The notes below the pieces were generated by a model, which ran no database searches, had not been told where the DNA came from, and saw only the letters and a list, made by a program, of their open reading frames with translations. 41,414 nucleotides of DNA. It comes from a virus. The first letter of the stretch is position 1. Every line of letters starts with the position of its first letter. The position numbers were made by a program, and so were the translations under genes. Below, one piece after another: positions 13,123 to 38,037 of the stretch. The DNA lies in IMG/VR virus record IMGVR_UViG_3300021959_000107, positions 1-41,414 of that record, one strand, 5' to 3'.

Positions 13123-13635
13123 ATGCGACATAATCAAAACAAAAAACTTATGACTCTACCTACTTGGTCGTATAAAGGTAGGTCCTTCACAGAAATATCA
13201 GATTTCCCGGAAGATACTTATGGGTTTATATATGAAGTTTGGCATAAACCTACAGATATAAAATATATAGGAAAAAAAGTACTGTACTTCGAACGAAATA
13301 AGAGATTAGGGAAAAAAGCTTTAGAAGCTTTAAAAGAAGAAAGAAAAGCAAAAGGCATAGGAGGAAGAGTTCCTTTGAAGCAAAAAGTTCGTACTGAATC
13401 TGATTGGAAGACCTATTATGGTTCTCATGAAAAAATAAAAGAACTTGTAAGTGAAACTAAAGACTTTAGAGAGGAATGGGAAAAAAGAATCCTGCAGATA
13501 GTCTCTTCTAAAAAGCTTTTAACATATTATGAATGTAAATACCTATTTATAAAAGAAGTCCTAGATACTAGAAATAAGTACATAAACGATAATATACTAG
13601 GGAAATTTTATAAAAAAGATTTTTTCAATGATTAA
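13123..13635 (+). CDS. SegE-like GIY-YIG endonuclease
   Basis: Protein of 170 residues in the SegE-like GIY-YIG family of phage endonucleases. Residues 34-37 (GFIY) correspond to the GIY element and residues 48-50 (YIG, in KYIGKK) to YIG. TESDWKTYYGS at about 91-101 is a signature of this family, and Glu137 in TYYECKYLF is the candidate metal-binding Glu, followed by the typical YINDNI. T4 Seg proteins are homing-type nucleases; whether this one is mobile is not shown, since I see no flanking repeats or interrupted gene. An alternative in-frame ATG at 13150 would remove 9 residues. The gene ends inside the start of the next one. Confidence 0.82.
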   Translation: MRHNQNKKLMTLPTWSYKGRSFTEISDFPEDTYGFIYEVWHKPTDIKYIGKKVLYFERNKRLGKKALEALKEERKAKGIGGRVPLKQKVRTESDWKTYYGSHEKIKELVSETKDFREEWEKRILQIVSSKKLLTYYECKYLFIKEVLDTRNKYINDNILGKFYKKDFFND

Positions 13636-16228: not shown

Positions 16229-17152
16229 ATGGATTATACTTTCCTTTTAGGATCAATCGAAAATATATTGGGTAAAAGCCACAAGAGAGCAAGAGACAAT
16301 TATGCTTTCCACTGTCCTTTTTGCAATCACCGTAAACCTAAACTTGAAATTAATATGGCAACCAACGAAGAGGGTAAGAACCCTTGGGAATGTTGGGTGT
16401 GTCAAACTAGAGGTAGAACCATACGCTCTTTACTTTATCAGCTAAAAACACCAAAAGAGCAGGCTGCTACTGTACTTAAATATTTACCGAAAGGTAGTGA
16501 AATAGAGTATAAAGGACTATCTATAGTAGAGCTACCGAATGAATATCAATTACTGTATTCCGCTTCAAGTACATCAATAGTAGCTAACTTAGTAAAAAAG
16601 TACTTATATGAAAGAGGACTTACCGATAATGATTTTATTAAATATGGGATTGGATACGCAACTAATGGAGAGTATGGAGGAAGAGTTATTATCCCAAGTT
16701 ATTCTGAATCCAATCAACTCAACTTTTTTGTTGCAAGAACTTATGATGGCAACTACTTTAAGTACAAGAATCCTGAAGCCTCAAAAGATATAATTTTCTT
16801 CGAAAATTTAATAAACTGGAATGCACCCATTATATTATGTGAAGGTGTATTTGATGCTATGGCAATACGTAGAAACGCTATACCTATACTGGGAAAGAGC
16901 GTCTCTAACTCATTATATAAAAAGATTATAACTAGTAATGTATCTGACATTTACGTTGCGTTAGATACGGATGCTCGAGATAGAGCATTACAAATAGCCG
17001 AACAATTACTTAATCAAGGTAAAAGAGTATTTCTAGTTAACCTCCCCGATAAAGACCCTTCCGAAATGGGCTTTAAAGCTTTTACCGAATTAATTCAATC
17101 AGCAGAAGAATTAGACCTATCAGGTATAATGCTGCACAAACTTGACCTATGA
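16229..17152 (+). CDS. gp61: DNA primase, T4 gp61-like
   Basis: Primase that makes RNA primers for lagging-strand synthesis. Residues 28-58 form a zinc-binding motif: His28/Cys29, Cys32, Cys55 and Cys58 (HCPFC and CWVC). The TOPRIM core has Glu205 in LCEGVFDAMAIR, Asp246 and Asp248 in YVALDTDARDRA, and a late DKDPSEMG motif. At 307 residues it is close to T4 gp61 (about 340). It lies in a replication-type island, directly followed by a RecB-like nuclease whose start overlaps by 4 bases. The partner helicase gp41 is not in this window. The 55-base gap before it contains no obvious signal. Confidence 0.9.
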   Translation: MDYTFLLGSIENILGKSHKRARDNYAFHCPFCNHRKPKLEINMATNEEGKNPWECWVCQTRGRTIRSLLYQLKTPKEQAATVLKYLPKGSEIEYKGLSIVELPNEYQLLYSASSTSIVANLVKKYLYERGLTDNDFIKYGIGYATNGEYGGRVIIPSYSESNQLNFFVARTYDGNYFKYKNPEASKDIIFFENLINWNAPIILCEGVFDAMAIRRNAIPILGKSVSNSLYKKIITSNVSDIYVALDTDARDRALQIAEQLLNQGKRVFLVNLPDKDPSEMGFKAFTELIQSAEELDLSGIMLHKLDL

Positions 17153-17931
17153 TAAAGCAAGGTATGAACATTCTTGAACAGAATGAAAAAAACAGACTTG
17201 ATTTTAATCCACAATTAAAACAAATTAACTTTCTTGATAGGAGAGTTTATAAAAGATCAGAAGGAGTATACTATCCGTCCGTAACTACCATACTCCAGTA
17301 TATGCCCAAAAATAAGTTTTTCGAGTCTTGGCTCAAAGACGTTGGGCATAACGCTGATCTGATTATGAGAAGAGCAGGTAAAGAAGGAACACAGGTTCAT
17401 GAAGCTGCAGAAGCTTTAGTTAAAGGAGAAGAGGTATCTTGGATGGATGATTACGGAAATGCAAGATATTCTCAAATAGTATGGGAAATGATTCTTAAGT
17501 TTTATGAATTTTGGTCAACTTATAAACCAGAACTTATATCAACAGAAGAATTCGTTTGGTCGGATAAATATAAGTATGCCGGTACCGCTGACTTAGTAGT
17601 TAAAATGGACGGTGAAACTTGGTTACTTGATATAAAAACATCTAATAGTATACATAAGTCCTATGACTTACAGTTAGCTTCTTATGCTAAAGCTCTAGGG
17701 GAATCCAAAGGTATTGATATAGAAAGAACCGGAATTATATGGTTGAAAGCTCAATCTAGAGGCCCTTCTAAGAAAAAAGGAGTATACCAAGGTAAAGGGT
17801 GGAAAATACTAAACATAGATGATATAGATAAAAACTTTGAATTATTTCAGATGATTTATAAATTATACCAGTTGGAAAACCCTAATACTGAACCTATTTA
17901 TAATAGTTATCCAACATCTTTGAAACTATGA
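17149..17931 (+). CDS. PD-(D/E)XK (RecB/Cas4-type) nuclease
   Basis: Protein of 260 residues. The nuclease core has His84 in GTQVHEAAEAL, Asp148 in AGTADLVVKMD, Asp161 and Lys163 in LLDIKTS, and Gln175 with QLASYAKAL, in the order and spacing of the RecB/Cas4-type exonuclease family. Typical phage roles are recombination or DNA end processing next to replication genes. It starts four bases inside the primase gene (ATGA). An alternative ATG exists at 17164; the first is preferred because of the coupling overlap. No iron-sulfur Cys cluster is visible, which separates it from classical Cas4. Confidence 0.88.
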   Translation: MIKQGMNILEQNEKNRLDFNPQLKQINFLDRRVYKRSEGVYYPSVTTILQYMPKNKFFESWLKDVGHNADLIMRRAGKEGTQVHEAAEALVKGEEVSWMDDYGNARYSQIVWEMILKFYEFWSTYKPELISTEEFVWSDKYKYAGTADLVVKMDGETWLLDIKTSNSIHKSYDLQLASYAKALGESKGIDIERTGIIWLKAQSRGPSKKKGVYQGKGWKILNIDDIDKNFELFQMIYKLYQLENPNTEPIYNSYPTSLKL

Positions 17932-18572
17932 ATAAACTTGTAAAAATTTGTCTCTCTGCAGTTTTTTTCGTATCTTTATATAGTTGTGGAACTTACCAAA
18001 TAAGTACCAAAAACAGAGTAAAGATAGAAAAGATCTTAACTGTAACCTCTACTGGTGATACTTTAGCGGTTCCTTTGAGAGATTTTCAAAGATATAATTA
18101 TGATAGCTTTGATTTTAATTTTACAAGATTTAACTACGGACTCTACAATAACTACTGGAACATCTGGTCATACCCATACTACGGTTGGCCCAATAGAGGA
18201 TTCAATTGGAATTATAGGAACTGGTACGTTAATCCTCCTATTTATAATTATAGTCCTCCTAAAGTACAGCCTAAGATACACATCAAAGGAAGAAGAGGAA
18301 GTGAAATTTTAAACCTTAATAGAGGAAGAAATAATAATGAAACTATCAGAATTAATCCTAGAAGCAACGACCAAACCCAAAGCCGTAATAATGGCAGGAG
18401 GAGCTGGAGCAGGGAAAACCTATCTCCTAAATCAGTTGTCCCTAGACTCTCTAACCCAGTTCAATCCGGACAAATACGTCGAGGATCCAGACCACCCGTA
18501 CTACAACAACCTAGGAGCAGCCAGCCGCCAAGTCAACAAGGACGTAGAAGCGGCAGCGGACGAGAAAACTAG
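17928..18572 (+). CDS. Phage lipoprotein, Bacteroidota-type, with overprinted C-terminus
   Basis: Protein of 214 residues. The N-terminus MNKLVKICLSAVFFVSLYSC is a classical lipoprotein signal with a lipobox ending at Cys20 (L-Y-S-C), so the mature protein should be anchored in a host membrane. Residues about 57-110 are extremely rich in Trp, Tyr, Phe and Asn (NYWNIWSYPYYGWPNRGFNW), followed by GRRG and an Arg/Ser/Pro/Gln-rich disordered tail. Similar W/Y/N-rich lipoproteins occur in flavobacteria, which is my main host clue. The last 236 bases (79 codons) also encode the start of a kinase in another frame. The phage may use it at the cell surface, for example against superinfection; this is inference. 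Confidence 0.75.
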   Translation: MNKLVKICLSAVFFVSLYSCGTYQISTKNRVKIEKILTVTSTGDTLAVPLRDFQRYNYDSFDFNFTRFNYGLYNNYWNIWSYPYYGWPNRGFNWNYRNWYVNPPIYNYSPPKVQPKIHIKGRRGSEILNLNRGRNNNETIRINPRSNDQTQSRNNGRRSWSRENLSPKSVVPRLSNPVQSGQIRRGSRPPVLQQPRSSQPPSQQGRRSGSGREN

Positions 18573-19272
18573 TTTTGTTTGGGACACTACAGCATCTGGA
18601 GTTCAGTTTGATAAAAATCTAGATAAACTAATTAAAAACGGATATGATGTATATATGATAATGGTATATACTCATCCTATGATTTCTTATATTTCAAATT
18701 TTACCAGAGAAAGAAACATTCCTTCTGCATCTATTTTTAGTACCTGGAGAAATGCTTACCAAAAAATTGGTGACTTCAATAAAAAATTAAAAGGAAATTT
18801 TTCAATTTTTGTTAACACTAGAGGAGGAGAATACGATAAAGAGATAGAAGGATTTAATACTGCAGCAAAAAATGGTCCTGCAGGCATAAAAGACTACCTT
18901 CAAAATTATAACGAAAAAACAGGTTACGGTAAATCATCGTTTTTTAAGCCTGTAGAAATGTCTAAGCAGGAAGAAGAAGAGTTTCAAAAAGCTATCCAAG
19001 GTATAGATTACGATAAAGAAAATAGATCCGAAGATAAAGCAATGAAAAATGCTTTCTTGAAATCTTACAGAAAGATAGGAGCAGGTCCTGGAGATGATAA
19101 AATGAGAGATACTCTTAAAAAATACAGAGACGGTAAAGAAAAAAGAGATCAAGATAATGAAGCAGTCTTAGAGAGTATTGCTGAAATGCTATTTTCACCT
19201 GTCTTCCAAGAATTACTTAAGCACTCTACTCCTCAAGAGATAGATAGAGATGTACAAAACTTTTTAGCATGA
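18337..19272 (+). CDS. P-loop kinase (Zeta-toxin-like), with capsid-targeting-like N-terminus
   Basis: Protein of 311 residues. A short leader MKLSELILEATTK (L-I-L-E at 6-9) is followed by the strand AVIMAG and a Walker A motif GGAGAGKT at 21-28. NPDKYVEDPDHPYYNN and VWDTTAS (about 69-75) correspond to substrate-binding and Walker-B-like elements of Zeta-toxin/PNK-type kinases, and RERNIPSASIFSTWRNAYQK provides the lid arginines. The C-terminal 110 residues are charged and helical. The substrate is unknown: Zeta toxins phosphorylate UDP-GlcNAc, while other relatives act on nucleic acids. Its N-terminal part overlaps the lipoprotein gene in another frame; the leader and Walker A lie in the overlap, so the ATG at 18337 is well supported. 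Confidence 0.85.
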   Translation: MKLSELILEATTKPKAVIMAGGAGAGKTYLLNQLSLDSLTQFNPDKYVEDPDHPYYNNLGAASRQVNKDVEAAADEKTSFVWDTTASGVQFDKNLDKLIKNGYDVYMIMVYTHPMISYISNFTRERNIPSASIFSTWRNAYQKIGDFNKKLKGNFSIFVNTRGGEYDKEIEGFNTAAKNGPAGIKDYLQNYNEKTGYGKSSFFKPVEMSKQEEEEFQKAIQGIDYDKENRSEDKAMKNAFLKSYRKIGAGPGDDKMRDTLKKYRDGKEKRDQDNEAVLESIAEMLFSPVFQELLKHSTPQEIDRDVQNFLA

Positions 19273-20471
19273 TAGCATTATATCCAGGAGCATTTAAACC
19301 ACCACATAGAGGACACTTTGAAGTTGTTAAAAGGCTTTTAAATGGAACTCATAATGGTAAGCTATATAGTGCAGACACATACAAAGATGTAGGTACATCT
19401 GCATTAGCTGGTGATAAAGATAAAGTTAAACAAATAAATAAAGTATTAGTCTTTATAGGAGGAGGAGAAAGAAACGGAATATCAAAAAAGGAATCAAAAG
19501 CTATTTGGGATATTTATAAGAAATATCTTCCTGGAGTTGAAATAATGGACGGACAAAAAAATCCAATGTTTGCTTCGAAAGATTATGCTAAAGCAAATCC
19601 TGATCAAGAATTCTACGCTATTGCAGGAATACGAACAGAAGAAGATATACCAGATCTAAGGAGAATAACTACATATAAAAATACTCCTAACGTTGAGGGG
19701 TTAGTTATAGCAGGACCTGGAGAACAAAGAGCTACTAAATTTAGAGCAGCAATACTTTCAGGAAACTTAGATGTAGTAAAAGATTTTTTTCCTTCTGAGT
19801 TAAATAAGGATGAGATTTTAAAAATTTTAAACATGTTAAAACAATCTATCATTTCAGAAGCTATGGAGAATACAATAGAAAATTTATTCTCTAACTGGTT
19901 TACAGAGAACCTTAACGAAGGTTCATCTGGTGCTCCTGTTGCTCCACGCTCTGTAGTACGATCTGATGATAGAGCTAAATTAGTTACTCTCTATAATAGA
20001 ATAAGAAACCAAGTCGAAACCGATACTGTATCTGTAACTTTTCAAGACGATCATATTAGAGTAGGTTTGAAAAATAAAACAGATAACTCAGATTTTGATT
20101 TTACCCCGTATATGGGTTCTATCTTAGAATATATGATAGATGAAGGTTTGAATATTACCCCTTTACCAGAAGTAAAAATAAGAAAAGATGTTACTGAAGC
20201 TTCTGACTTTTTCGGACGTACTGCATATTACGATCCTTCTATAAATGAAATAGTACTATACACACAAGGTAGACACCCTAAAGATATTATGAGATCATTT
20301 GTACATGAAATGATACACCATATTCAAAATATAGAAGGAAGATTAGTTGATGTTAATACATCTAATACAAATGAAGATGAACATTTGCTAGAACTAGAAA
20401 AAGAAGCTTACCTAAGAGGTAATATTACTTTTAGAAACTGGGAAGATAAAATTAAAAATGAATATAAATAA
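19269..20471 (+). CDS. Nucleotidyltransferase-metallopeptidase fusion
   Basis: Protein of 400 residues with two different catalytic modules. Residues 1-190 form a HxGH nucleotidyltransferase: LYPGAFKPPHRGHFEVVKRL with His13 and His16, and GEQRATKFRAAILSGN near 151-165 in place of the ISSTxxR motif. This fold transfers NMP groups, for example in NMNAT or CTP-dependent enzymes. A linker with ISE-A (195-198) and LNE-G (215-218), both fitting the gp21 consensus, is followed by GSSGAPVAPRS. Residues about 226-400 contain SFVHEMIHHIQN with the zincin HExxH at 346-350 and a later Glu in LELEKEAYLRGN as candidate third ligand. It overlaps the kinase stop by 4 bases. The substrates are unknown. Confidence 0.82.
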   Translation: MIALYPGAFKPPHRGHFEVVKRLLNGTHNGKLYSADTYKDVGTSALAGDKDKVKQINKVLVFIGGGERNGISKKESKAIWDIYKKYLPGVEIMDGQKNPMFASKDYAKANPDQEFYAIAGIRTEEDIPDLRRITTYKNTPNVEGLVIAGPGEQRATKFRAAILSGNLDVVKDFFPSELNKDEILKILNMLKQSIISEAMENTIENLFSNWFTENLNEGSSGAPVAPRSVVRSDDRAKLVTLYNRIRNQVETDTVSVTFQDDHIRVGLKNKTDNSDFDFTPYMGSILEYMIDEGLNITPLPEVKIRKDVTEASDFFGRTAYYDPSINEIVLYTQGRHPKDIMRSFVHEMIHHIQNIEGRLVDVNTSNTNEDEHLLELEKEAYLRGNITFRNWEDKIKNEYK

Positions 20472-20476
20472 AGGTT

Positions 20477-21022
20477 ATGCAAAAATTAAAAGAACTTCTT
20501 AAAGAAGGGTACCCTCTAAAAGAGGAAAAACCAAGTCCCCCATACAAAATTTATTGTGACATGGACGGAGTTTTAACAGACTTCGAATCAAGGTTTGAAC
20601 ATTTTACAGGAATGTCTCCTAAACAGTATGAAAACAGATATGGAACACCTGGCTTCTGGGATCTCATAGATAATAAAATAGGTGTTAAATTTTGGGTTGG
20701 AATGGATTGGATGCCTGAGGGTAGAAGACTTTGGGATTTTATTAACCCTTATCGACCAGACCTTTTAACCTCTCCCTCTAGACACGATACATCAAGACTT
20801 GGTAAAAACCTATGGGTAAGAAATAATTTAAACCCTAAACCTAAAGTTATATTTGCATATTCAGCAGATAAGCAGAGATATTCAAAAGAAAATGCTATAT
20901 TAATAGATGATAAAAAGTCTAATATAAACGAATGGGCTGCAAAAGGCGGAATTGCAATAAGATGTAAAGACGGCAATGTAGACCATGTTATACAAAAGTT
21001 ACAAGAATTAGGATATGAGTAA
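20477..21022 (+). CDS. HAD-family phosphatase (5'-nucleotidase-like)
   Basis: Protein of 181 residues. A short leader MQKLKELLKEGYPLKEE precedes the HAD core: motif I IYCDMDGVLTDF with Asp28 and Asp30, motif II in LLTSPSRHD, and motif IV ILIDDKKSNINEWAAKGG. The layout resembles deoxyribonucleotidases of the NT5C type, which would dephosphorylate nucleotides, but polynucleotide phosphatase activity cannot be excluded next to a P-loop kinase. L-L-K-E-G at residues 7-11 again fits the shared N-terminal pattern. The gene overlaps the next by 8 bases. Confidence 0.85.
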   Translation: MQKLKELLKEGYPLKEEKPSPPYKIYCDMDGVLTDFESRFEHFTGMSPKQYENRYGTPGFWDLIDNKIGVKFWVGMDWMPEGRRLWDFINPYRPDLLTSPSRHDTSRLGKNLWVRNNLNPKPKVIFAYSADKQRYSKENAILIDDKKSNINEWAAKGGIAIRCKDGNVDHVIQKLQELGYE

Positions 21023-21593
21023 TGAATCGTTATTAAAAAAAGAGTTCAAACAATCAGACGTACAAAGAGCACGTAACTTAGTTAATAAAGACTTTACTGC
21101 TAAAACCAAGCTTCAAACCGGATATAAAAAATCTTTTGAATATCATAAAGAAGGAGATATATGGGAAGAGTCTGGAAAGACCTGGACTATTAAAAACGGT
21201 ATTAAACAAAACATTACTAAATTAGATAAAGCAAAAAAAGCTACAAGAATACCTTTAACTTGTCCGAAATGCGGCAGTCCAATGAAACATCATTTATCTA
21301 AAAAAATGTTTAAACTTCATGGATTTTGCTTTGATCCATGCACAGTCGAAATGGAAGCTAATCTTAAAAAAGCAGGTTTATACGAAGATTACGAAAAGAG
21401 AATGATGTCTGGCAATTTAAAAGCATTTGCTGACGATATCGAATCATGGGCTCTTGAAACTTTATCTACCTCAGACAACTTTGTTACTGAGGACGGAACT
21501 GTAGAGAATTGGGGAGGAATGTCTTCTAAAAAGAGGGATGAGTTATTAGAAGGTATCAAAGATTACGCACAGTATATAAGAGAAAAAGCGTAG
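21015..21593 (+). CDS. Zinc-ribbon-like protein, unknown function
   Basis: Protein of 192 residues. The middle has a probable zinc-binding site, PLTCPKCGSPMKHHLSKKMF followed by GFCFDPC, giving a CxxC plus CxxxC arrangement. The N-terminal 70 residues are basic and helical (KKEFKQSDVQRARNLVNKDF) and the C-terminal part is helical and acidic. The start overlaps the HAD gene. Proteins of this pattern are recurrent in marine phages; the function is not known. It may bind nucleic acid. Confidence 0.75.
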   Translation: MSNESLLKKEFKQSDVQRARNLVNKDFTAKTKLQTGYKKSFEYHKEGDIWEESGKTWTIKNGIKQNITKLDKAKKATRIPLTCPKCGSPMKHHLSKKMFKLHGFCFDPCTVEMEANLKKAGLYEDYEKRMMSGNLKAFADDIESWALETLSTSDNFVTEDGTVENWGGMSSKKRDELLEGIKDYAQYIREKA

Positions 21594-21603
21594 CTATTTA
21601 TTA
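21594..21603 (+). promoter_or_regulatory. Candidate late-promoter motif CTATTTATTA (variant)
   Basis: Directly after the preceding stop codon and 17 bases before the next ATG. This copy ends TTA instead of ATA, so it is the weakest member of the set. Confidence 0.25.
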
Positions 21604-21620
21604 GTAAAATAACTTTTCTA

Positions 21621-21977
21621 ATGACACAGAAAGAACTACTTGAATCTTTATTGACCGAAATCAAGTATGTAAGAACTAACATGCCAAATGGCGAGTTTAA
21701 GCAGCTACAGAAGGACCTTGAACACGTAAAAGAAGATATCTCAGACCTTAAATATACTCTCCTTAACCCCGAGGACGGTGTGATAGTAAACACTAATAAA
21801 AACTCAGAGTTTAGATTAACAGAAGCTTCTAGAAAAAGAGAATACGACGAATACATTAGTGAACTTAAAGACTTACTAGCCTGGAAAGCAGGAGTAACTA
21901 GAGCTCTTTGGATAATTTTTGGTTCGTTAGTAGCTATCGTTGGTAGAATGTTATTTGAACATTCAGATAAAGTATAA
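21621..21977 (+). CDS. Small coiled-coil protein with C-terminal membrane segment
   Basis: Protein of 118 residues. The first 50 residues and residues 70-90 form charged helices with heptad-like spacing (FKQLQKDLEHVKEDISDLKY). A single hydrophobic segment near the C-terminus (ALWIIFGSLVAIVGRMLF, about 95-112) is a probable transmembrane helix, giving a tail-anchored topology. This could be a spanin-like, holin-like or membrane-tether protein; size and topology alone do not decide. It has its own copy of the recurrent upstream motif. Confidence 0.7.
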   Translation: MTQKELLESLLTEIKYVRTNMPNGEFKQLQKDLEHVKEDISDLKYTLLNPEDGVIVNTNKNSEFRLTEASRKREYDEYISELKDLLAWKAGVTRALWIIFGSLVAIVGRMLFEHSDKV

Positions 21978-21981
21978 TTGT

Positions 21982-22500
21982 ATGAAAAATTTTAAACAAG
22001 CACTCAAGGAACTTCAAGAAGAAAAACCAGGACTTTGGGCTAATATTAGAGCTAAAAGAGCTAGAGGTGAAAAACCTGCCCATAAAAACTCTAATGCACA
22101 TAAGGATGCAGTAAAAGCCGGTAAGAAGATTAATAAAATGTCTGAAGGTCAAGATTGGCCTCAAGAACTCGAATCAAGATATGGAGAGTTTATCTTTAAA
22201 TTAATTAAGGTAGGATCCGATAGAGCTAAATACTCTTTAGTTGATGTAGAAACTGGAGAAGAAAAAGGAACACCGGTATTTAAATCTGTAGATACTCTAA
22301 AAGCTTTTGCTTCTGATTATATCAAACCTCAAGGCGGTACACAATCTACAAATCTAGGAGAAGATAAATCAGATGCTATCAGATGGTTTGGTAATTTAAA
22401 GTACTACTACCAAAAAGGACTATCAAGCCCAGATTTAAGAGACCCGGCTGATAAAGAAGAATACAAAAGATTAGCAAAAGATTTTTTTAGTAAACTATAA
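21982..22500 (+). CDS. Small protein with capsid-targeting-like N-terminus
   Basis: Protein of 172 residues from the ATG at 21982, starting MKNFKQALKELQEEKPGLW. An in-frame TTG at 21940 would add 14 residues inside the previous gene and has no support. An NIRAKRARGEKPAHKNSNAH segment is basic, and the middle domain (ELESRYGEFIFKLIKVGSDR, then KYSLVDVETGEEKGTPVFKS) looks like a small beta fold. The C-terminal 60 residues are helical. Leader and first domain are common in marine phage proteins with unknown roles. Confidence 0.7.
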   Translation: MKNFKQALKELQEEKPGLWANIRAKRARGEKPAHKNSNAHKDAVKAGKKINKMSEGQDWPQELESRYGEFIFKLIKVGSDRAKYSLVDVETGEEKGTPVFKSVDTLKAFASDYIKPQGGTQSTNLGEDKSDAIRWFGNLKYYYQKGLSSPDLRDPADKEEYKRLAKDFFSKL

Positions 22501-22503
22501 GAA

Positions 22504-23061
22504 GTGAAACTAATTCAACTCATACTTGAAGGTATAACCTACAGAGACCCAAACTTCGCCGAAGAATATGAGGAAGCTCTACGTTATCCCGAGTTTGAGA
22601 AAATGGGTAAACAGGGTTGGATTGATATAGCTAAAAAAGGATACGTTACATCTTACTCTAAGATTAAAAACGTACTAGGAAATGTCGATTTAAATTTCGA
22701 TAGTTTAGAAGAACCTAAAAAACAGAGATTCCAAGACGCATTCAAAAGAGGTACAATCGAAATGTCGATAGCTGTTAAGTTCTCTGACAACGATTATGAC
22801 CTAGTTGCCGGTAATACTAGACTTTCAGGTTTAGTTAAGAACGGTATTGATCCAAAAATTTGGATTGTAGATTTATCTGAAATGCAAGAAAACTACGCCG
22901 ACGGTAAAGTAAAAGGAAAATCTAGACCCGGTAGAGTTAAAAGATCAGGAGCCTCATGTAAAGGTTCTGTTTCCTCTCTAAGAGCTAAGGCTAAAAAGTA
23001 TGGCGGAGAGAAAGGAAAAATGTACCACTGGTGTGCAAACATGAAAGGCGGTAAAAAATAA
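22504..23061 (+). CDS. ParB-like protein with Cys-containing C-terminal motif
   Basis: Protein of 185 residues starting with GTG, three bases after the previous stop. Leader MKLIQLILEGITYRDPNFAE has L-I-L-E-G at 6-10. Residues about 80-125 resemble a ParB/Srx-type domain, with DYDLVAGNTRLSGLVKNGID (GNTR at 103-106) matching the usual nucleotide-binding G-x-x-R box. The C-terminus SRPGRVKRSGASCKGSVSSL followed by KGKMYHWCANMKGG is a separate two-Cys module frequent in marine phages. ParB-like phage proteins can be nucleases or DNA-binding proteins; this one is unassigned. Confidence 0.78.
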   Translation: MKLIQLILEGITYRDPNFAEEYEEALRYPEFEKMGKQGWIDIAKKGYVTSYSKIKNVLGNVDLNFDSLEEPKKQRFQDAFKRGTIEMSIAVKFSDNDYDLVAGNTRLSGLVKNGIDPKIWIVDLSEMQENYADGKVKGKSRPGRVKRSGASCKGSVSSLRAKAKKYGGEKGKMYHWCANMKGGKK

Positions 23062-23088: not shown

Positions 23089-26000
23089 ATGTCTAATATG
23101 ACCTACCAAGAAATTAAAGATAGTCTATCTAAATGTGAAAAGTCCTTAAAAGCAATACAAGATGGGACTTACAAAGATATAAAAAATATCGATGTTAAAG
23201 AAACTATAACTAAACTACAAATGTTAAAAGAATCTTTTACAAAGCAACTTAGTGAAATGGAAATTGATCCTGAAAAAGGAGTAGTATCTACTGATGATTC
23301 TGGAGAAGCTGAAAAACTTGCTAAAAAAGGTATAAATGTAGCACTCACGAAAGAACAAGAAGGAGTAAAGTTTTCAAAAGAAGAAACGATGGCTATTGCT
23401 AAAGACGTAGGAAAAGCAGTAGCTAAAGCATTAAATGATGCAGGAGATGAAGTAGCACATATGAAAGCTAAAGACATCTCTGAAGGTTCTTTCGAGATAT
23501 ACGTTGAATATAAAAATGGATCTGATGATCAATTTTCTTTCTACATCTCAGACGATACCTTACATTTAGTAGATTTTTCGTTTGATAAAGAACTAGTAGA
23601 CGTAGGAGTTAAACCTTCTGGTGAAGCTATTGTGCATGTTGACGTATTAGCTAATGAGTTAGTAAAACATTTCAGATCTTTATCTGAAGGTATGTCTGAT
23701 CAAGAATTTGCTGACGCAAAAGAAAAAGAAAGATTAGAAAAGCATCCTGAAAGAGATATGATTAAAAAGATTCAAGCTCTTATTCAAAATGCTAATAAGA
23801 ATGAAGGTGAATATGCTGCTGATAAACATAACGTTAATGTATATGGTTATCAAACTATGCATTTTGATATTTGCCCTGGAGCTAAATCTTTATTTGATAG
23901 AGTGATTAAAGACGGAAGCATTGAAGATAAAGAAGGGTTGAAAAAATTAGCTCAACTACATGATATCCTCTTTACTATTGAAAAGATTGCTTTGAAAGAT
24001 TCAAATAAAGCTAAGCAGTATTTAGATAGAGCAATCAAAGTTGCTTCAGATATATACGTATTAGGTAACAGAATCGGTTTAAATCAAAACACAGATCTTT
24101 CCTATATTCAGTCTCATATTGAAAAAATTAATGATGCTGCTAGAGAAGAGGAAGTAAATGAAGCTCCTGAAAATATGTACTACTTTAAAGTACCTAGAAC
24201 AGACAAAGCTAAATTAAATGCTGCTCAAAATACCATTGAAACTTTCTACGACCCAGTTAGATTCGCTGATATTGTAGATGATGACGGTGCCGGTAATGTT
24301 GTTATGTATATCCATAAAAAAGATTTTGACCCTGGTATGATTGATGACCTGCAAGGTGACGGCATAGATCTATCATCGTCTAATTTTCCTGGTATAAACG
24401 AAAATACACCAACAGTCTTTGATGACGAAAGCATGGATGCTTTACGTGATATTATTTTAAAATACGTAGAAGATCCAAACGATGCAGAAAAAGCAGTACA
24501 GCAAGTAGATGATAACGGACTAGATTCTCTATCACCAGAACTAACTGCCAATCTGGAAAGAGATCCAGAATTTAAAGCTTGGTATAATAAATTACATAGT
24601 GTTCCAAATGCAGATACTGATTATATGAAAAGAAGAAGATCAGAAAAAGACTATCAGCAAGAAAATGCATTAGGATTTAGCGATATAAAAAAATTAGGAG
24701 ATAAAGCTGCTAGTCATATAGACATAGAAACTAGAAGAGATTCAAGATATACTTTCGGTAATAGACCATATCAGGATGATCAATTAAGATATCAGATTGC
24801 TAAAAAATTAGGGTATATAAAAGAAAATGAAGCAGAAGATGGCAAGTTAGTTACCTTTGGATATGATTTAGATAGAATAGAAGATGTTGTTAAACATCTA
24901 CAAAGTAAATATAAAGAAGGACAAGATTTTGAACTTCATATAGGTTACGGAGATGATTTACCTAACGCAGTAACTTTAAAGAATCCTTCATTACAAAAGG
25001 ATCATGACTTAAATGATATGCTAAACGCAGCTCAAGCTGATAATGATTATATAGGAGAAGGAGAAGACTTAGATGTAGGACATCAAGACGATGAACCTGG
25101 AATGTTAAAATCGACTGCTTATGAATCTGCTACATATGCTGCTAAGCTTTACAAAAAATTAGCTAAGTACGATCAATTTGATGGAGAAGTAGATTTTCCT
25201 AATTGGTGGCAATCTAAATTAATCTTAGCAAAAGACTACTTATCAAAAGCATTCCACTATTTAGACTCAGAAGAAAAGCAACCTATGATTGATAAGCTTG
25301 CTTTAGAAGCTCAATCTCATCCGGTAATGGTTCAGCAGAGAATAGCTCATGCTAAAAAAGCTAAAGAAAAAGAAGGACAAATGGCTGCTTCTAAAGGTAA
25401 GAAGTATAGCGAGAATCCTTACGAAAAAGGTACTAAAGATCATTTAGCATGGTCTAAAGGACATAACTCATCTAGAGCTAGAAAATTAAGCTTAAAAGAG
25501 TGGGGAGGATCGGATCAAAATGCAATGAATCAATCAATGCATAAGGATTTAGGTAACCCTGATAAATTCCCTGGATTAAGCCAAGTATTAGCAGCTGCAG
25601 AAGCCGCAGTAGATTTTTACTGGGATGATTGGGAAGAGTATAAAACAGATAGAGAAGGTCTTGTAACGTATGCTGCACAGAGATATACTTCTAAAATGTT
25701 CCCTGAATTCTGGAGTAATATGCAAAAATTATTTGCTCCAGCTAATGAAGGTAAATATAAATCAGACGCTCAAAGAAAAGCTATTCATGCTAAAAAAGCA
25801 GAAATGAATGAAGCATCTTATGATGATGCAATTTCTGAATTAAGAGATATTGTAGACCGAGCAGAAGATTTAGGACAAGAAGCTAGAGAGATTGTAAGAC
25901 AGTACTTCCCTAGTGAGCTCTCTAGATTAGATGGATATGGAGCATTCAACTTTGTTTATTCAAGTAATAGATACGATACTACTTTAGGTAAGTTTGTAGA

Positions 26001-26457
26001 TAGATTAGAAGAAGAAGGTTACGATGATGAATTCGACGAATCAGTAGATGAATTATTCGGTTCTAAAGTAAATTATGACGATATTATAGGACCTATCGTT
26101 AAAAGATTGCAAGATCTTAAAAAATACGTTAGTAAGAAAGAACCAGATGCAATGGATGACCTCCAGCAAGTAATTAGAGCTTTTGAAATTTTTGATGAAA
26201 AGATGTCTTACGGGACTCATATGGAGTTAGAAGAAGGTCAAGCAGCTATTAAAAAGCAATTAGACAAAATCGACCAAGCTTTAAAACAGCATAAAGACCA
26301 TACTATAGCTGTTGCTAAAACTCCTGCAGATCAAAGATCAGAAGAAGATAAAGAACATCTTGCTAAAATGGCAGAGTTAACTAAAAAGAAAAAAGAGCTT
26401 TTAGATAAGTACGGAGATGCAGTAGCAGGAATTAATAGAAATCAAGAATTAGATTAA
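23089..26457 (+). CDS. Large mosaic (polyprotein-like) protein, candidate prohead/internal protein
   Basis: Protein of 1122 residues, Lys/Glu/Asp-rich, built from several short unrelated domains. Candidate gp21-type sites (hydrophobic or Asn before Glu, then a small or polar residue) fall between them: LSE200-G, VNE358-A, INE438-N, IKE579-N, GE657-G, LKE804-W, ANE887-G, MNE908-A and LEE1049-G. Recognisable segments are [20 protein letters not shown] with a helical domain (about 223-355), a beta domain at about 360-430, and a helical domain around [20 protein letters not shown] (about 706-725). [20 protein letters not shown] (775-794) resembles the ribosome modulation factor motif, and [20 protein letters not shown] follows. 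The gene lies upstream of the terminase and head genes. The function is unknown; an internal head or scaffold-associated role is inferred. Confidence 0.8.
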
Positions 26458-26460
26458 GAT

Positions 26461-27078
26461 ATGAAAAGAGCTGATCTAAAAAAGTTAATACTAGAAGCAT
26501 ACGAAGAGGTTCTTATAGAGTCCCTTATTGATGAAGTAGAAGATAAACCACAACCAGAAGAAGAGCCTGATACTAAAGCACCTGAAGAAACAGTATTAGA
26601 AGATTCTACGGATACTATACTTTCTAAATTTCCAACTCTTAAAGCTGCTCTAATAAAATTACAGACAGAAGATTTTAAAGAGTTTGTAGACTCTATAGAT
26701 TGGATTTCACCTCGTCCTACTTCTTTTAGAATCAATCTAAAAAATGGACAGGATTATATTTTAAAATGGACAGGTAAAACTTTTGAAGCTCAGATTATGG
26801 GCAAAAGATACTATATTAATAAAATAGACGACTACCAGCAAGCATTAGATAAACTTGCTTTACTCTATCAAGAAGCGCCTATGAAAGGAGCTGGAGAAGC
26901 TGACTTTGACACTGACACCGGAGGCGGTGGCGGAGGAGGCGGAGACTTTCCTGGCGAAGAAGGTGGAGCAGAAGGTGGAGAAGACTTTCCTGGAGGAGAA
27001 GAAGGCGGTGAAGAAGGCGGTGAAGACCTATCCGGAGAGCCAATTGATTTTGAAGCAGGAGAAGAACCAGAAGCATAA
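26461..27078 (+). CDS. Capsid-targeting-like protein with acidic Gly-rich tail
   Basis: Protein of 205 residues starting MKRADLKKLILEAYEEVLIE (L-I-L-E-A at 9-13). Residues about 25-50 are acidic and Pro-rich. The central domain (DSIDWISPRPTSFRINLKNG, then FEAQIMGKRYYINKIDDYQQ) looks like a compact beta domain. From about residue 150 a Gly-rich acidic repeat region begins with units like GGEDFPGGEEGG. The related N-terminus MKRADL reappears in the 77-residue head protein. It is probably virion-associated; the function is unknown. The last base of its stop overlaps the start of the next gene. Confidence 0.75.
   Translation: MKRADLKKLILEAYEEVLIESLIDEVEDKPQPEEEPDTKAPEETVLEDSTDTILSKFPTLKAALIKLQTEDFKEFVDSIDWISPRPTSFRINLKNGQDYILKWTGKTFEAQIMGKRYYINKIDDYQQALDKLALLYQEAPMKGAGEADFDTDTGGGGGGGGDFPGEEGGAEGGEDFPGGEEGGEEGGEDLSGEPIDFEAGEEPEA
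26920..27026 (+). repeat. Gly/Glu-coding low-complexity repeat
   Basis: Tandem-like GGN/GAA codon repeat encoding eight Gly in a row and then two to three irregular copies of GG-x-EGGEDFPG. It is unusually G-rich for this genome and sits fully in frame inside the preceding gene. Such tracts are prone to slippage, so length may vary between relatives. Confidence 0.7.
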
Positions 27079-28030: not shown

Positions 28031-29605
28031 ATGGCACAAGACATAAAAAAACTAATCGCACAAGAGTACATCAAGTGCGCAAAAGATCCGGCGTACTTCA
28101 TGAAGAAGTACTGCTATATTCAGCACCCTACACGTGGCCGAATCTTATTTAATCTTTATCCATTTCAAGGTAAAGTTCTTCATTTATTTAAAGACCATCA
28201 ATATATTATTACTCTTAAGTCTAGACAGCTAGGTATATCAACTTTAGCTGCAGCATATTCTTTGTGGCTGATGTTATTTCATAAAGATAAAAACGTCTTA
28301 GCATTAGCAACTACCCAGGCAACTGCACGTAACCTAGTATCTAAGACGATGTTTATGTACGATGAGTTACCAAGATGGCTAAAGCTACCTGCCAAGGAGA
28401 AAAACAAATTATCACTAAGGTTAAAGAACGGTTCTAAAATAACAGCTAAGTCATCTAATGCAGATGCTGCAAGATCAGAAGCAGTATCGCTACTACTAAT
28501 AGATGAGGCAGCGTTTATCGATAATATTGAAGAAACGTTTACTGCAGCACAGCAAACACTAGCTACCGGTGGACAGTGTATGGCATTATCTACCCCTAAC
28601 GGTATTGGTAACTGGTTCCATCAAACATGGGAAAAAGCTGAATCAAAAGAAAACTCATTTTTACCTATTAGACTACCTTGGACAGTACATCCAGAAAGAA
28701 ATCAAGCTTGGAGAGATCAACAAGATGCTGACCTTGGCCCTAGAATGGCAGGACAGGAATGTGATTGTGACTTCTTAGCTTCCGGTGATACAGTATTTGA
28801 ACCAGATGATATGGCTTATTATGAACAGACCTATGAAAAAGATCCTTTAGAAAGAAGAGGTGTCGACGGTAACTTATGGGTATGGGAAGGAGTAGATTAT
28901 ATGAAATCGTATATGGTTGTAGCTGACGTCGCTAGAGGTGATTCAACTGACTACTCTGCATTCCATATATTTGATATCGAATCTTGTACGCAAGTTGCTG
29001 AATATAAAGGTAAACTTTCACCTAAAGATTTTGGTAACGTACTTGTAGGAATAGCATCAGAGTATAACGATGCATTACTTGTAGTAGAAAATGCAAACAT
29101 TGGATGGGCTACTATTGAGCAGATCCTTGAAAGAGAATATAGAAACTTATATTATAGTTCTACAGCCAATATGGAATCAGTAGAATCATATATGAATAAA
29201 TTTGAAAGAGATAAATTAGTTCCTGGATTTACAATGTCTGCTAGAACTAGACCTTTAGTTATTGCCAAAATGATTGAGTACATAAGAGAGAAATCAGTTA
29301 CTATTCAATCAAAACGTTTAATGTCTGAAATGAGAGTATTTGTTTGGAAAAACGGTAAAGCTCAAGCACAGGACAGATATAACGATGACCTTTTAATGGC
29401 ATGTGCAACAGCTCTGTATGTACGTGATACTGCTCTTAGATTAAGACAGCAAGGTATGGATTTAGCTAGAGCACAGCTATCTTCTTTTAATAATCTTAAC
29501 GCCAGGAACCAAGCTGTAATGACAAATGTTGCTATCCAGAGAGAAAATCCGTATCTTACTAAGACAGCCTATGGCGAAGAAGATATTCGCTGGCTGTTAA
29601 AATAG
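28031..29605 (+). CDS. gp17: Terminase large subunit gp17
   Basis: ATP-driven packaging motor and headful nuclease, 524 residues. ATPase: TLKSRQLGISTLA at 61-73 is the Walker A, lacking the usual Lys before Ser/Thr (T4 has SRQLGKT), so Lys63 or Arg65 probably does the job, as in terminases with a displaced Lys. Walker B LLLIDEAAFI has Asp158 and Glu159; STP at 187-189 is the coupling motif. Nuclease: Asp299 in VVADVARGDSTDY, Glu353 in LVVENANIGW and Asp452 in RYNDDLLMACATAL form the RNase H-like acidic triad. It stands directly before the portal gene. gp16, gp18 and gp19 are not between them, unlike T4. Confidence 0.95.
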   Translation: MAQDIKKLIAQEYIKCAKDPAYFMKKYCYIQHPTRGRILFNLYPFQGKVLHLFKDHQYIITLKSRQLGISTLAAAYSLWLMLFHKDKNVLALATTQATARNLVSKTMFMYDELPRWLKLPAKEKNKLSLRLKNGSKITAKSSNADAARSEAVSLLLIDEAAFIDNIEETFTAAQQTLATGGQCMALSTPNGIGNWFHQTWEKAESKENSFLPIRLPWTVHPERNQAWRDQQDADLGPRMAGQECDCDFLASGDTVFEPDDMAYYEQTYEKDPLERRGVDGNLWVWEGVDYMKSYMVVADVARGDSTDYSAFHIFDIESCTQVAEYKGKLSPKDFGNVLVGIASEYNDALLVVENANIGWATIEQILEREYRNLYYSSTANMESVESYMNKFERDKLVPGFTMSARTRPLVIAKMIEYIREKSVTIQSKRLMSEMRVFVWKNGKAQAQDRYNDDLLMACATALYVRDTALRLRQQGMDLARAQLSSFNNLNARNQAVMTNVAIQRENPYLTKTAYGEEDIRWLLK

Positions 29606-34218: not shown

Positions 34219-34797
34219 ATGGCACAATTATTAGTAGACGTTACGCCATTTAGACCTACGATCAAAGAATCGAAAACCAGACCTGGTGTATTCGAGGTTG
34301 AAGGTGTGATGCAAAGAGCAACAGCTCAGAATCAAAATGGTCGTGTTTATTCAAAAGCTATTCTAGAAAGAGAAGCTAAAAAGTACATGCAAGAGTTTGT
34401 TGACAACGGCAATGCTTTTGGAGAATTAGACCATCCAGAATCACCAGTGGTATCTTTAAAGAACGCTTCTCATATTGTAAAAGAACTTTGGTGGAAAGGA
34501 AATGACCTAATGGGTAAAGTAGAACTACTAAATACACCTGCAGGTAACATTGTAAAAGAAATTATTAAGGCCGGGCATACTATCGGTATATCATCTAGAG
34601 GTACTGGATCAGTACAACAAACAAATGAGGGTACTTTAGAAGTTCAACCTGATTTTGAATTAGTATGTTGGGACTTTGTTTCTAATCCTTCAACACATGG
34701 GGCTTTTATGAACCCTATTTCATTAAATGAAGGAAAAGTAAAAGTGTCAAAATACGCTAATCTAGATAATATTATTAACGACATTTTAAGATCATAA
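34219..34797 (+). CDS. gp21: Prohead protease gp21
   Basis: Serine protease that matures the T4-type prohead by cutting after L/I-x-E in scaffold, capsid and internal proteins. From the ATG at 34219 it has 192 residues (T4 gp21, 212). A longer frame reaches 28 codons upstream into the previous gene and is not supported. Catalytic residues: His72 in GELDHPESP, Ser125 (or Ser126) in GISSRGTG, and Asp152 in CWDFVSNPSTHGAF. SLNE-G near residue 168-172 could be a self-cleavage site. The next gene starts after 2 bases, and gp22 and gp23 follow. Confidence 0.93.
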   Translation: MAQLLVDVTPFRPTIKESKTRPGVFEVEGVMQRATAQNQNGRVYSKAILEREAKKYMQEFVDNGNAFGELDHPESPVVSLKNASHIVKELWWKGNDLMGKVELLNTPAGNIVKEIIKAGHTIGISSRGTGSVQQTNEGTLEVQPDFELVCWDFVSNPSTHGAFMNPISLNEGKVKVSKYANLDNIINDILRS

Positions 34798-35375: not shown

Positions 35376-36428
35376 ATGTCAAACAAAGATTTATTCAAGC
35401 AAGCTATTGCTGAAGCTAAATCTGTAAGAGAAGCTGCTATTGTTAACGCAAAAGAAGCTTTAGAAGAATCTTTGACTCCGCACTTAAAAGATATGTTGGC
35501 TGCTAAACTTCAAGAAATGGAAGATAAATCTGTCGAAGAAGAAGTAGTAAACGAAATCGAAGAAGAGCTAGAAGAAGGAGATTACTCTAAAGAAGAATCT
35601 GTTGAAGAAACAGTAGAAGAAGAACTTACAGAAGTAGAACCAGTTGGCGAAGCTGAAGAAGAAGAAGTTGCTGACGAAGAAGAAGCAGAGGATGATTCAG
35701 AAGAATCTGAAGACGATGCTGAAGCTGTCGAAGGTGACGAAGACTTGGGAGACCTTAGCGTTGACCAGTTTAAAGATCTTATCCGTGACATCATTTCACA
35801 AGAAATGGGACATGGTGAAGAAGAAATCGGTGCTGATTTAGATGCAGGTGATATCGAAGGTTTAGGTGATGAGCCTGAAGCAATCGAAGAACCGGCTGCT
35901 GATGATGAGGAAATCGATTTAGACGAACTTTTAAGAGAACTAGAAAGTATTAGTGAAGAAGAAGTTGAAGAAGGTAAAAAAGAAGAAGTAGACGGAGAGG
36001 TAGTTGAAGAAGATACTGCAAATCAAGTAGAAGCACAATCTGATACAAAAGACCACAACGTAAACGACACTCTTAAGGAAGCTTTAGAAACTGTTGAAAG
36101 CCTTAAACAAGAACTTTCAGAAGTAAATCTATTGAATTCTAAATTACTTTATGTCAACAAAATCTTTAAAGCAAACACTTTATCTGAATCTCAAAAAGTA
36201 AACATTATTGCTGCTTTCGACAAAGCCGAAACAGTAAAAGAAGTAAAATTAGTTTTTGAAACAGTTTCTGAAAATGTAGTTACTACTAAAAAAGAAAACG
36301 TTTCAGAATCTAAATTTAAAGGAATGGCATCTAAAGCTACAGGAACTACTGCTAATAAGCCAGCAGAAAACATTGTACTTTCAGAAGCTGTTCTAAGAAT
36401 GCAAAAATTAGCTGGAATTATTAAATAA
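35376..36428 (+). CDS. gp22: Prohead scaffold/core protein gp22
   Basis: Major scaffold of the T4-type prohead, degraded by gp21 during maturation. It has 350 residues (T4 gp22, 269), with a helical N-terminus SNKDLFKQAIAEAKSVREAA (A-I-A-E-A at residues 9-13 fits the consensus), a very long acidic Glu/Asp-rich middle (about 55-215) and a helical C-terminus (ALETVESLKQELSEVNLLNS). The last residues VLSEAVLRMQKLAGIIK are of the conserved kind at scaffold ends. It is placed just before gp23, with a private terminator-flanked leader. Acidic composition and position make the call secure although sequence identity to T4 is not claimed. Confidence 0.88.
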   Translation: MSNKDLFKQAIAEAKSVREAAIVNAKEALEESLTPHLKDMLAAKLQEMEDKSVEEEVVNEIEEELEEGDYSKEESVEETVEEELTEVEPVGEAEEEEVADEEEAEDDSEESEDDAEAVEGDEDLGDLSVDQFKDLIRDIISQEMGHGEEEIGADLDAGDIEGLGDEPEAIEEPAADDEEIDLDELLRELESISEEEVEEGKKEEVDGEVVEEDTANQVEAQSDTKDHNVNDTLKEALETVESLKQELSEVNLLNSKLLYVNKIFKANTLSESQKVNIIAAFDKAETVKEVKLVFETVSENVVTTKKENVSESKFKGMASKATGTTANKPAENIVLSEAVLRMQKLAGIIK

Positions 36429-36447: not shown

Positions 36448-38037
36448 ATGGAAATTAAAAACCTATTAGAAAGCTCGAATACTTATAAAAGTATGCAAGC
36501 TGACTCTGCTAGATTAGCAGACAAGTGGGCTTCTTCTGGATTGTTAGAAGGTATCGAAGATGCACGTGTACAAGGTAACATGGCAGTAATCTTAGAAAAC
36601 CAAGCAAAACAAATCGTAGCAGAAGCTAACACAACAAATGTAGGTGGTGGAACATTTAGTGCAGGTGCTGGAGAGCAGTGGGCAGGTGTAGCTTTACCTT
36701 TAGTAAGAAAGGTATTCGCTCAAATCGTAGCTCAAGACTTCGTATCAGTACAACCAATGAACCTACCATCTGGTCTAGTATTCTATCTAGACTTTAAATA
36801 CGGAACTGCAACTAACGGTAGAGCTGATGGAGACAACCTATACGGTAATGTTTCTTCTGCTTCTGCTAAAATTGGAGTAGACGAAGAAGTAGACGGAGGT
36901 CTTTACGGTGCTGGTAAATTTGGTTACTCAATCAACCAAAATTCTTTAGCTGTAACTTCAAACGCTACAGGATCTGCAACTTCTGCTTCTATCGCTTATG
37001 AAAACGGAGTTAATCCTGGAGACTTCTACACAGTAACAGTAGATATGTCATCAACTAACTTTGATAGCTTAGGTGTTAGAGCATTCCAAATCTTATCTGG
37101 ATCTACTAACGTAACTAATTACGCTAAGTACACAACAGTATCTGGAAACAACGTTACTTTCGTTGTTAAGAAATCTGATACTACTATTGACAACGTATTT
37201 AACGGATCAGTACTATATCACGTACAGCCAGTAGACAATGACAGAGGAGACTTTGAAGCTGCAGGTACTAACGTAGTAGATAACTCAATCACTATCCCAG
37301 AAATCGACGTAAAACTTGCTTCTGAGGCGATTGTTGCTAAGACAAGAAAACTAAAAGCACAATGGACTCCAGAATTCGCTCAAGATCTTAACGCTTACCA
37401 CAGCATCGACGCTGAGGCTGAGTTAACTTCATTATTGAGTGAGTATATCTCTATGGAGATTGATCTTGAGATCCTAGACATGCTTATCCAAGATGCTAGA
37501 ACTACAGAAAGATGGTCAGCAGAAAACAACAAAGTATGGTTAAACAATGCTTGGTCTACTTCTACTTCTGATTTCTACAATACTCAAGGACAGTGGTTCC
37601 AAACTTTAGGAACTAAAGTTCAAAAAGTATCTAACAAAATCCACCAAAAAACTTTAAGAGGTGGTGCTAACTTCATCGTATGTTCACCAAACGTAGCTAC
37701 TATCCTAGAATCTATTCCTGGATATGCTGCTGCAACTGACGGAGATGCAATGGAATTCAACATGGGAGTACAAAGAGTAGGTTCGTTAGCGAACAGATTC
37801 AAAGTATACAAAAACCCATACATGACTGAGAACATCTTATTATTAGGTTTCAGAGGTTCACAATTCCTAGAAACAGGAGCTGTATATGCACCTTATGTAC
37901 CATTAATGATGACTCCTCTAGTGTACGATCCAGACACTTTCACTCCAAGAAAAGGTCTAATGACAAGATACGCTAAGAAGATGATCAGACCTGAATTCTA
38001 CGGTAAAATCTTTATTTCTGACTTAGCTCAGATCTAA
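36448..38037 (+). CDS. gp23: Major capsid protein gp23
   Basis: HK97-fold major capsid protein, 529 residues (T4, 521). It starts MEIKNLLESSNTYKSMQADS, and a delta-like N-terminal region ends at IVAE59-A60, the predicted gp21 cut. GAGEQWAGVALPLVRKVFAQ then IVAQDFVSVQPMNLPSGLVF is the most conserved gp23 signature, FKYGT follows, and LTSLLSEYISMEIDLEILDM, RGGANFIVCSPNVATILESI and the C-terminal TRYAKKMIRPEFYGKIFISD are further family blocks. Codon use is visibly different from neighbours, with frequent C-ending Asn, Asp, Phe and Tyr codons, as expected for a very highly expressed gene. A strong terminator follows. Confidence 0.97.
   Translation: MEIKNLLESSNTYKSMQADSARLADKWASSGLLEGIEDARVQGNMAVILENQAKQIVAEANTTNVGGGTFSAGAGEQWAGVALPLVRKVFAQIVAQDFVSVQPMNLPSGLVFYLDFKYGTATNGRADGDNLYGNVSSASAKIGVDEEVDGGLYGAGKFGYSINQNSLAVTSNATGSATSASIAYENGVNPGDFYTVTVDMSSTNFDSLGVRAFQILSGSTNVTNYAKYTTVSGNNVTFVVKKSDTTIDNVFNGSVLYHVQPVDNDRGDFEAAGTNVVDNSITIPEIDVKLASEAIVAKTRKLKAQWTPEFAQDLNAYHSIDAEAELTSLLSEYISMEIDLEILDMLIQDARTTERWSAENNKVWLNNAWSTSTSDFYNTQGQWFQTLGTKVQKVSNKIHQKTLRGGANFIVCSPNVATILESIPGYAAATDGDAMEFNMGVQRVGSLANRFKVYKNPYMTENILLLGFRGSQFLETGAVYAPYVPLMMTPLVYDPDTFTPRKGLMTRYAKKMIRPEFYGKIFISDLAQI

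Follow-up and report, generated by a model that had tools for sequence, protein, structure and literature searches.

T4-like phages are known to inject a few of their head proteins. Here we describe a run of seven genes (18337-23061) in the IMG/VR virus record IMGVR_UViG_3300021959_000107, positions 1 to 41,414 of which form the analysed stretch of 41,414 bases (the window). The window is the complete record, a 41-kb piece from a T4-like phage that infects marine bacteria and is kin to Flavobacterium phage immuto, the nearest isolate, whose terminase large subunit (TerL) is 77.7% identical; the TerL of Microcystis phage Mel-JY01 is 50% identical. It runs from baseplate and tail genes through a block that extends from primase to terminase, and on to portal, S77 protease, scaffold and the major capsid protein gp23. 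A preliminary description had proposed that the seven genes encode enzyme cargo delivered with the DNA, carrying leaders that end in L/I-x-E. All seven open reading frames were found in place on the plus strand, as are the other window features whose coordinates are written with two dots below. Two of their junctions overlap, by 4 and 8 bases, and the other four leave gaps of 5, 27, 4 and 3 bases.

The first gene (18337..19272) encodes a P-loop kinase that resembles Zeta toxins and polynucleotide kinase (PNK); a Zeta-like kinase had been suspected. It matches Pfam Zeta_toxin with an E-value of 1.2e-13 (51.4 bits, above the curated cut-off of 22.3), and its Walker A residues G26 and K27 as well as D45 and D83 are invariant. 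In a Foldseek search with the predicted model, PNK (4gp6) was the top match (2e-5), and PezT/zeta followed at about 1e-4. No epsilon-type antitoxin was recognised among the neighbours of the kinase gene, and tblastn with the kinase found no close annotated relative among GenBank phages. The protein begins with a predicted capsid-targeting leader of nine residues, MKLSELILE (18337..18363), and a cut would be expected after E9 (ILE/A, where the slash marks the predicted cut). A [LIM]xE motif precedes the kinase domain in all 69 distinct homologous sequences, E9 is nearly invariant, and the only residues of the model with pLDDT<50 are 1-11, where the leader sits. A lipoprotein reading frame (17928-18572) shares 236 bases with the kinase gene in another frame, an overlap that is seen again in relatives.

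The second gene (19269..20471) encodes the described fusion of an HxGH nucleotidyltransferase and a zincin, with the motifs PPHRGH and HEMIHH. The best fold match of its model is PPAT/CoaD (CoaD 1od6, 1e-4). The catalytic residues G15, H16, R154/R159, H346, E347 and H350 are invariant, and H13 is at least 90% conserved. NCBIfam equivalogs for the named nicotinamide mononucleotide (NMN) and pantetheine-phosphate substrates give 19-20 bits against cut-offs of 103-127, and the zincin matches none of the described polyvalent domain families. Judging from sequence and model, the first domain would thus be a CoaD/NadM-like adenylyltransferase without a definite substrate. The protein has no N-terminal leader. 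Its interdomain linker (19851..19922) holds the two internal sites noted before, ISE/A (after E197, base 19859) and LNE/G (after E217, base 19919). Both P1 glutamates are among the few invariant residues of a linker that is otherwise divergent in 21 relatives, and residues 199-233 are disordered in the AlphaFold model. A third motif, MIDE/G, sits within the zincin, where it is probably buried.

The third product (20477..21022) is a HAD phosphatase, which was also correctly named; it resembles 5'(3')-deoxyribonucleotidases (PHROG 2643, 6e-21), with a weak Pfam NT5C match (0.028) in one relative (L107) and no match in a PDB sequence search. Its leader MQKLKELLKE/G would be cut after E10, and 53 of 55 homologues have a site ahead of the domain. 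It is followed by a zinc-ribbon-like protein (21015..21593; PHROG 4615, 2.6e-5), a conserved neighbour, and by a coiled coil with a C-terminal membrane helix (21621..21977) that weakly resembles a virion structural protein (PHROG 473, 0.0023); the cysteine pairs of the former and the helix of the latter come from our reading of the sequence only. The sixth gene, formerly the unknown one, encodes a protein with what we call an LWANI module (21982..22500). The module shuffles, and [LIM]xE lies upstream of 23 of its 37 starts at a background of 0.21. The seventh protein (22504..23061) combines a ParB-like module with a basic cysteine module, carries the leader VKLIQLILE/G (E9) and has an internal MQE/N (after E129); [LIM]xE precedes 20 of 26 ParB-like module starts (background 0.15). 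The name ParB-like is a weak call from a GNTR motif: no database match was obtained, and a PDB sequence search gave no meaningful result. The basic cysteine module (KGKSRPGRVKRSGASCKG...YHWCANMK, 22891-23058) is very widespread, and the search with the ParB-like protein returned at least 592 relatives. Four of the seven genes had been credited with a leader. Leaders of the T4 type, about 7-20 residues long and ending in L/I-x-E, are carried by the kinase, the HAD phosphatase and the ParB-like protein, while the LWANI-module protein has a weaker one (LKE/L or LQE/E, with a weaker P1') besides an internal MSE/G. The zinc-ribbon protein shows none, and the possible LLE/S of the coiled coil is doubtful, its P1' not being conserved.

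The kinase query found 46 IMG/VR loci and the query with the nucleotidyltransferase-zincin protein 231. In more than 100 loci the same order recurs, with gaps and replacements: primase, exonuclease, (lipoprotein), kinase, nucleotidyltransferase-zincin, HAD, zinc ribbon, coiled coil, a protein of 1122 residues and terminase. Loss of the block and its leaders in relatives had been named as an outcome that would speak against the proposal; gene order and the leaders of kinase and HAD phosphatase persist in dozens of relatives. The comparison goes beyond the earlier claim at the fusion gene. Its orthologues range from 322 to 1312 residues, the window protein being the shortest common form, and hidden Markov models delineate the orders HIGH-ZIN1, HIGH-ZIN1-ZIN2, HIGH-ZIN1-HAD, POLB-HIGH-ZIN1-ZIN2 and HIGH-ZIN1-ZIN2-HAD, as well as one order with two ZIN2 domains (up to HIGH-ZIN1-ZIN2-ZIN2-HAD plus other modules). 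In the window the HAD domain has a gene to itself; in about 18 relatives it is joined to the C-terminus of the polyprotein and is therefore an end module there. A ParB-like domain is found within one polyprotein (L112). Insertions elsewhere comprise a zinc ribbon, an ART module (in L101; PF18760 ART-PolyVal, 2.9e-5, under the cut-off) and two basic modules, and one member matches Pol-beta (4.7e-6). The nucleotidyltransferase-zincin gene is thus a variable polyprotein, and shuffling involves its second zincin, HAD, ParB-like, zinc-ribbon, ART and Pol-beta modules. The NadR annotation of immuto gp88 was considered and set aside, because the N-terminal domain of gp88 reads as a Pol-beta-type nucleotidyltransferase by sequence, with weak Pfam support, and not as a kinase; predicted sites in gp88 include TLAE/ALDD, VKE/GSSGT and MAE/GRYD. 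In Mel-JY01 the same place upstream of terminase (L240:11243-13162) holds an HxGH transferase, then IIAE/GG and a different second domain, whose KLDG suggests a ligase by eye only. A tRNA-repair kit composed of the PNK-like kinase, the phosphatase and this possible KxDG ligase-like domain was rejected, as the ligase has no support in any database.

A protease that could cut such sites is encoded in the window. The prohead core protease (34219..34797) is an S77 enzyme of the T4 gp21 type (Pfam Peptidase_S77, 5.3e-35), it aligns with T4 gp21 in the His and Ser regions, and it is presumed to be the cutter of the L/I-x-E sites. L/I-X-E is the published cleavage rule of T4 gp21 (PMC9026906; PMC5694885), and the first ten residues of IPIII are enough for head targeting (PMC9026906). 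The motif also occurs in the head proteins themselves: the scaffold/core-like protein (35376..36428), by sequence the ortholog of immuto gp67, has an IAE/A leader and six strict sites, and gp23 (36448..38037) has LLE/S, LLE/G, ILE/N and VAE/A in its N-terminal propeptide region, where immuto and Mel-JY01 have similar motifs. In a T4 control with the motif set beforehand, 8 of 10 reference gp21 substrates were recovered, and 14 of 192 other T4 proteins matched as well, so that single occurrences prove little. In immuto, motif-tagged proteins are concentrated in the head and cargo region (13 of 31, against 9 of 178 elsewhere, p=2.8e-7).

The bare motif is common and, taken alone, weak. We took the starts of eight module families, reduced for redundancy, and counted sites within 16 residues upstream. 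[LIM]xE was present at 120 of 152 starts, compared with 56 in shuffles (maximum 70), and the strict form at 68, compared with 14 (maximum 25); the control motifs [LIM]E and [LIM]xK were not enriched. All 36 ZIN2 starts read [LIMV]xE/G although the preceding residues are widely divergent. Domain cores are poor in sites (74 vs 131). Two other tests were given up. Shuffling across whole linkers was dropped as the main test in favour of the position-specific module starts because the reversed motif was enriched too, and the bare [LIM]xE test per family was dropped as unspecific because the exonuclease passes it.

The tag also sits on enzymes unrelated to those of the window. About 20 viral loci of related phages (L028:14677-15324, L130-L154) encode a tagged Fe/Mn superoxide dismutase (SOD), which has no match in PHROGs. 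Its match to solved PDB enzymes begins at query residue 13, which is enzyme residue 2, and MKLSKLILE/NK is therefore an added tag; variants are MKMSDILLE/A, MKIKDILFE/Q and MRFSKLSNIILE/Q. The gene occupies three genomic positions, namely in the cargo block, upstream of primase, and beside gp21 and gp23 (L148, L149, L154). The only untagged phage SOD (L152) lies on a contig without a homologue of this phage group. In L032 and L033 a SOD with its own tag is fused behind another tagged unit in one reading frame and retains the inner tag, which may illustrate a route by which such polyproteins arise.

From these sequence features we consider it probable that the block encodes head-internal enzyme cargo that is tagged, packed into the prohead, diced by a gp21-type protease and injected with the DNA. 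The short L/I-x-E leaders at the N-termini would act as the capsid targeting sequence of T4 internal proteins does and bring the proteins to the prohead core. There, the gp21-type serine protease would trim each leader and cut the linkers of the adenylyltransferase-zincin protein, yielding at least two separate enzymes per gene within the head. The freed enzymes would exit together with the DNA and, ahead of phage gene expression, work on nucleotides, cofactors or proteins in the new host; obvious candidate functions are an early supply of nucleotides or cofactors and counter-defence. Modules move back and forth between the polyprotein and tagged genes of their own, and each would bring its cut site. 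With somewhat less assurance, we favour the wider view of a modular kit, in which the prohead-protease site serves as a joint, and folded enzymes (kinase, adenylyltransferase, nucleotidase, ART, zincins, SOD) receive the tag or a place between two sites, enter the head as polyproteins, are diced there and reach the host as a mixture of single enzymes. The preliminary interpretation as a whole is partly supported.

Several observations weigh against injected cargo. The bare motif is found even within folded cores, as with MIDE/G in the zincin, and the exonuclease, which is probably not cargo, has [LI]xE near residue 10 in 74 of 80 homologues. [LIM]xxE is also elevated at module starts (90 vs 53), less than [LIM]xE, and part of the enrichment across linkers is inflation, as the reversed motif too exceeds shuffles 2.1-fold. 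Some relatives have Lys or Thr as P3 of the second linker site, P1' of the first is variable, and the zinc-ribbon protein lacks a convincing tag. Late expression is not certain, because primase and nuclease lie within the same gene run. The literature searched yielded neither virion proteomics for this phage group nor a study of the virion proteins of immuto; PMC7077304 treats other phages of immuto's host.

In one alternative, which we regard as unlikely, the products would be auxiliary enzymes of the usual kind, made and used inside the infected cell; what look like leaders would be relics or accidents, and the long forms would be no more than multidomain enzymes. Adenylyltransferase, nucleotidase and kinase activities are typical of phage auxiliary functions, the adjacent primase and nuclease work in the cell, and the motif is short and common. 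Yet the concentration of tags in the head cluster, the tagged SOD in three genomic settings and the placement of sites at module borders would all be left unexplained. It is rather improbable that the proteins are head-bound core or scaffold components for assembly, whose fragments mostly exit the head, with any enzymatic role in the new host coming second. T4 core proteins do share the motif and end up as fragments (PMC9026906), and the 1122-residue neighbour and the gp67-like protein are rich in sites; a scaffold would need neither invariant catalytic residues in adenylyltransferase and zincin nor an intact SOD, and the folded cores are poor in sites. That polyvalent proteins are cut by their own zincins, in the head or after injection, with L/I-x-E as zincin sites, deserves equally little credence: polyvalent proteins centre on zincins, which have been proposed to process the chain (Iyer et al. 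2017, PMC5512222), and at least one is present in nearly every long form, but the motif is that of gp21, is present in this phage's own capsid and scaffold proteins, and marks SOD and kinase, which are separate proteins without a zincin.

If the cargo proposal holds, a ten-residue tag and a short cut motif would allow one to read from sequence which proteins abundant aquatic phages inject and to predict the mature products, and would explain unrelated enzymes in head gene clusters. The arrival of an antioxidant enzyme and of enzymes for nucleotides or cofactors at entry would add new functions to early infection. Immuto, which grows on Flavobacterium LMO8, is a cultured relative in which the proposal can be tested.

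Further genes belong to the same region. The putative polyprotein of 1122 residues (23089..26457) has 8 strict sites, is part of the same block and is joined to the next gene in immuto gp79; a protein with the predicted leader MKRADLKKLILE/A follows (26461..27078), and TerL (28031..29605) closes the conserved block. Megablast with the head region did not find a close annotated relative. The Cas4-like exonuclease (17149-17931; NCBIfam cas4, 1e-7) has its [LI]xE either by chance or as a further cargo protein. A gene at 13123-13635 belongs to a SegE-like GIY-YIG endonuclease family, in which one relative of the set with L087 matches PF19835 (2.3e-26); its immuto ortholog is annotated as NAD synthetase. 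Immuto also encodes QueC/D/E, FolE and DpdA (L127:18607-37015), which suggests 7-deazaguanine DNA modification. Among the relatives, a small leader-bearing protein resembles a protein kinase N-lobe (L035:6894-7325, L126:13367-13807; weak matches, Pkinase 0.049 and PHROG 15752 0.0056), and leader-bearing leucine-rich-repeat proteins form a run with six similar copies in one locus (L101:13495-14142).

Our best reading by analogy is that the putative cargo resembles T4 internal proteins crossed with polyvalent proteins. With IPI, IPII, IPIII and Alt of T4 it shares the N-terminal L/I-x-E leader, the gp21-type protease and the head gene neighbourhood, and the ART module among relatives recalls Alt, an enzyme delivered with the DNA. 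T4 has four such proteins, reported to give one mature product each and demonstrated to be packaged, whereas here many enzyme families are tagged, polyproteins have sites at module borders, and packaging is predicted. Polyvalent proteins (Iyer et al. 2017, PMC5512222) likewise join unrelated enzyme domains in one chain, include zincins, ART-PolyVal, Pol-beta nucleotidyltransferase (there classed as conjugative-only) and ParB-like domains, and are predicted to be delivered with the DNA; the HxGH transferase and zincin of the window agree with their definition of at least two disparate activities per chain. In contrast to them, the proteins described here have prohead-protease sites between modules, which also occur as separate tagged genes, and include HxGH adenylyltransferase, nucleotidase and SOD. 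The inner-body and ejection proteins of the giant phages phiKZ and SPN3US (PMC5694885, PMC10052503) are head-internal and cut after Glu by a gp21-related protease too, but at S/A/G-x-E or A-x-E, and reportedly mainly to remove an N-terminal propeptide, not to dice several enzymes. Dar/DarB of phage P1 (PMC9024508) has an N-terminal head-targeting signal and is delivered with the DNA as anti-restriction cargo; it differs in capsid system and protease, and DarB is a single chain of 250 kDa.

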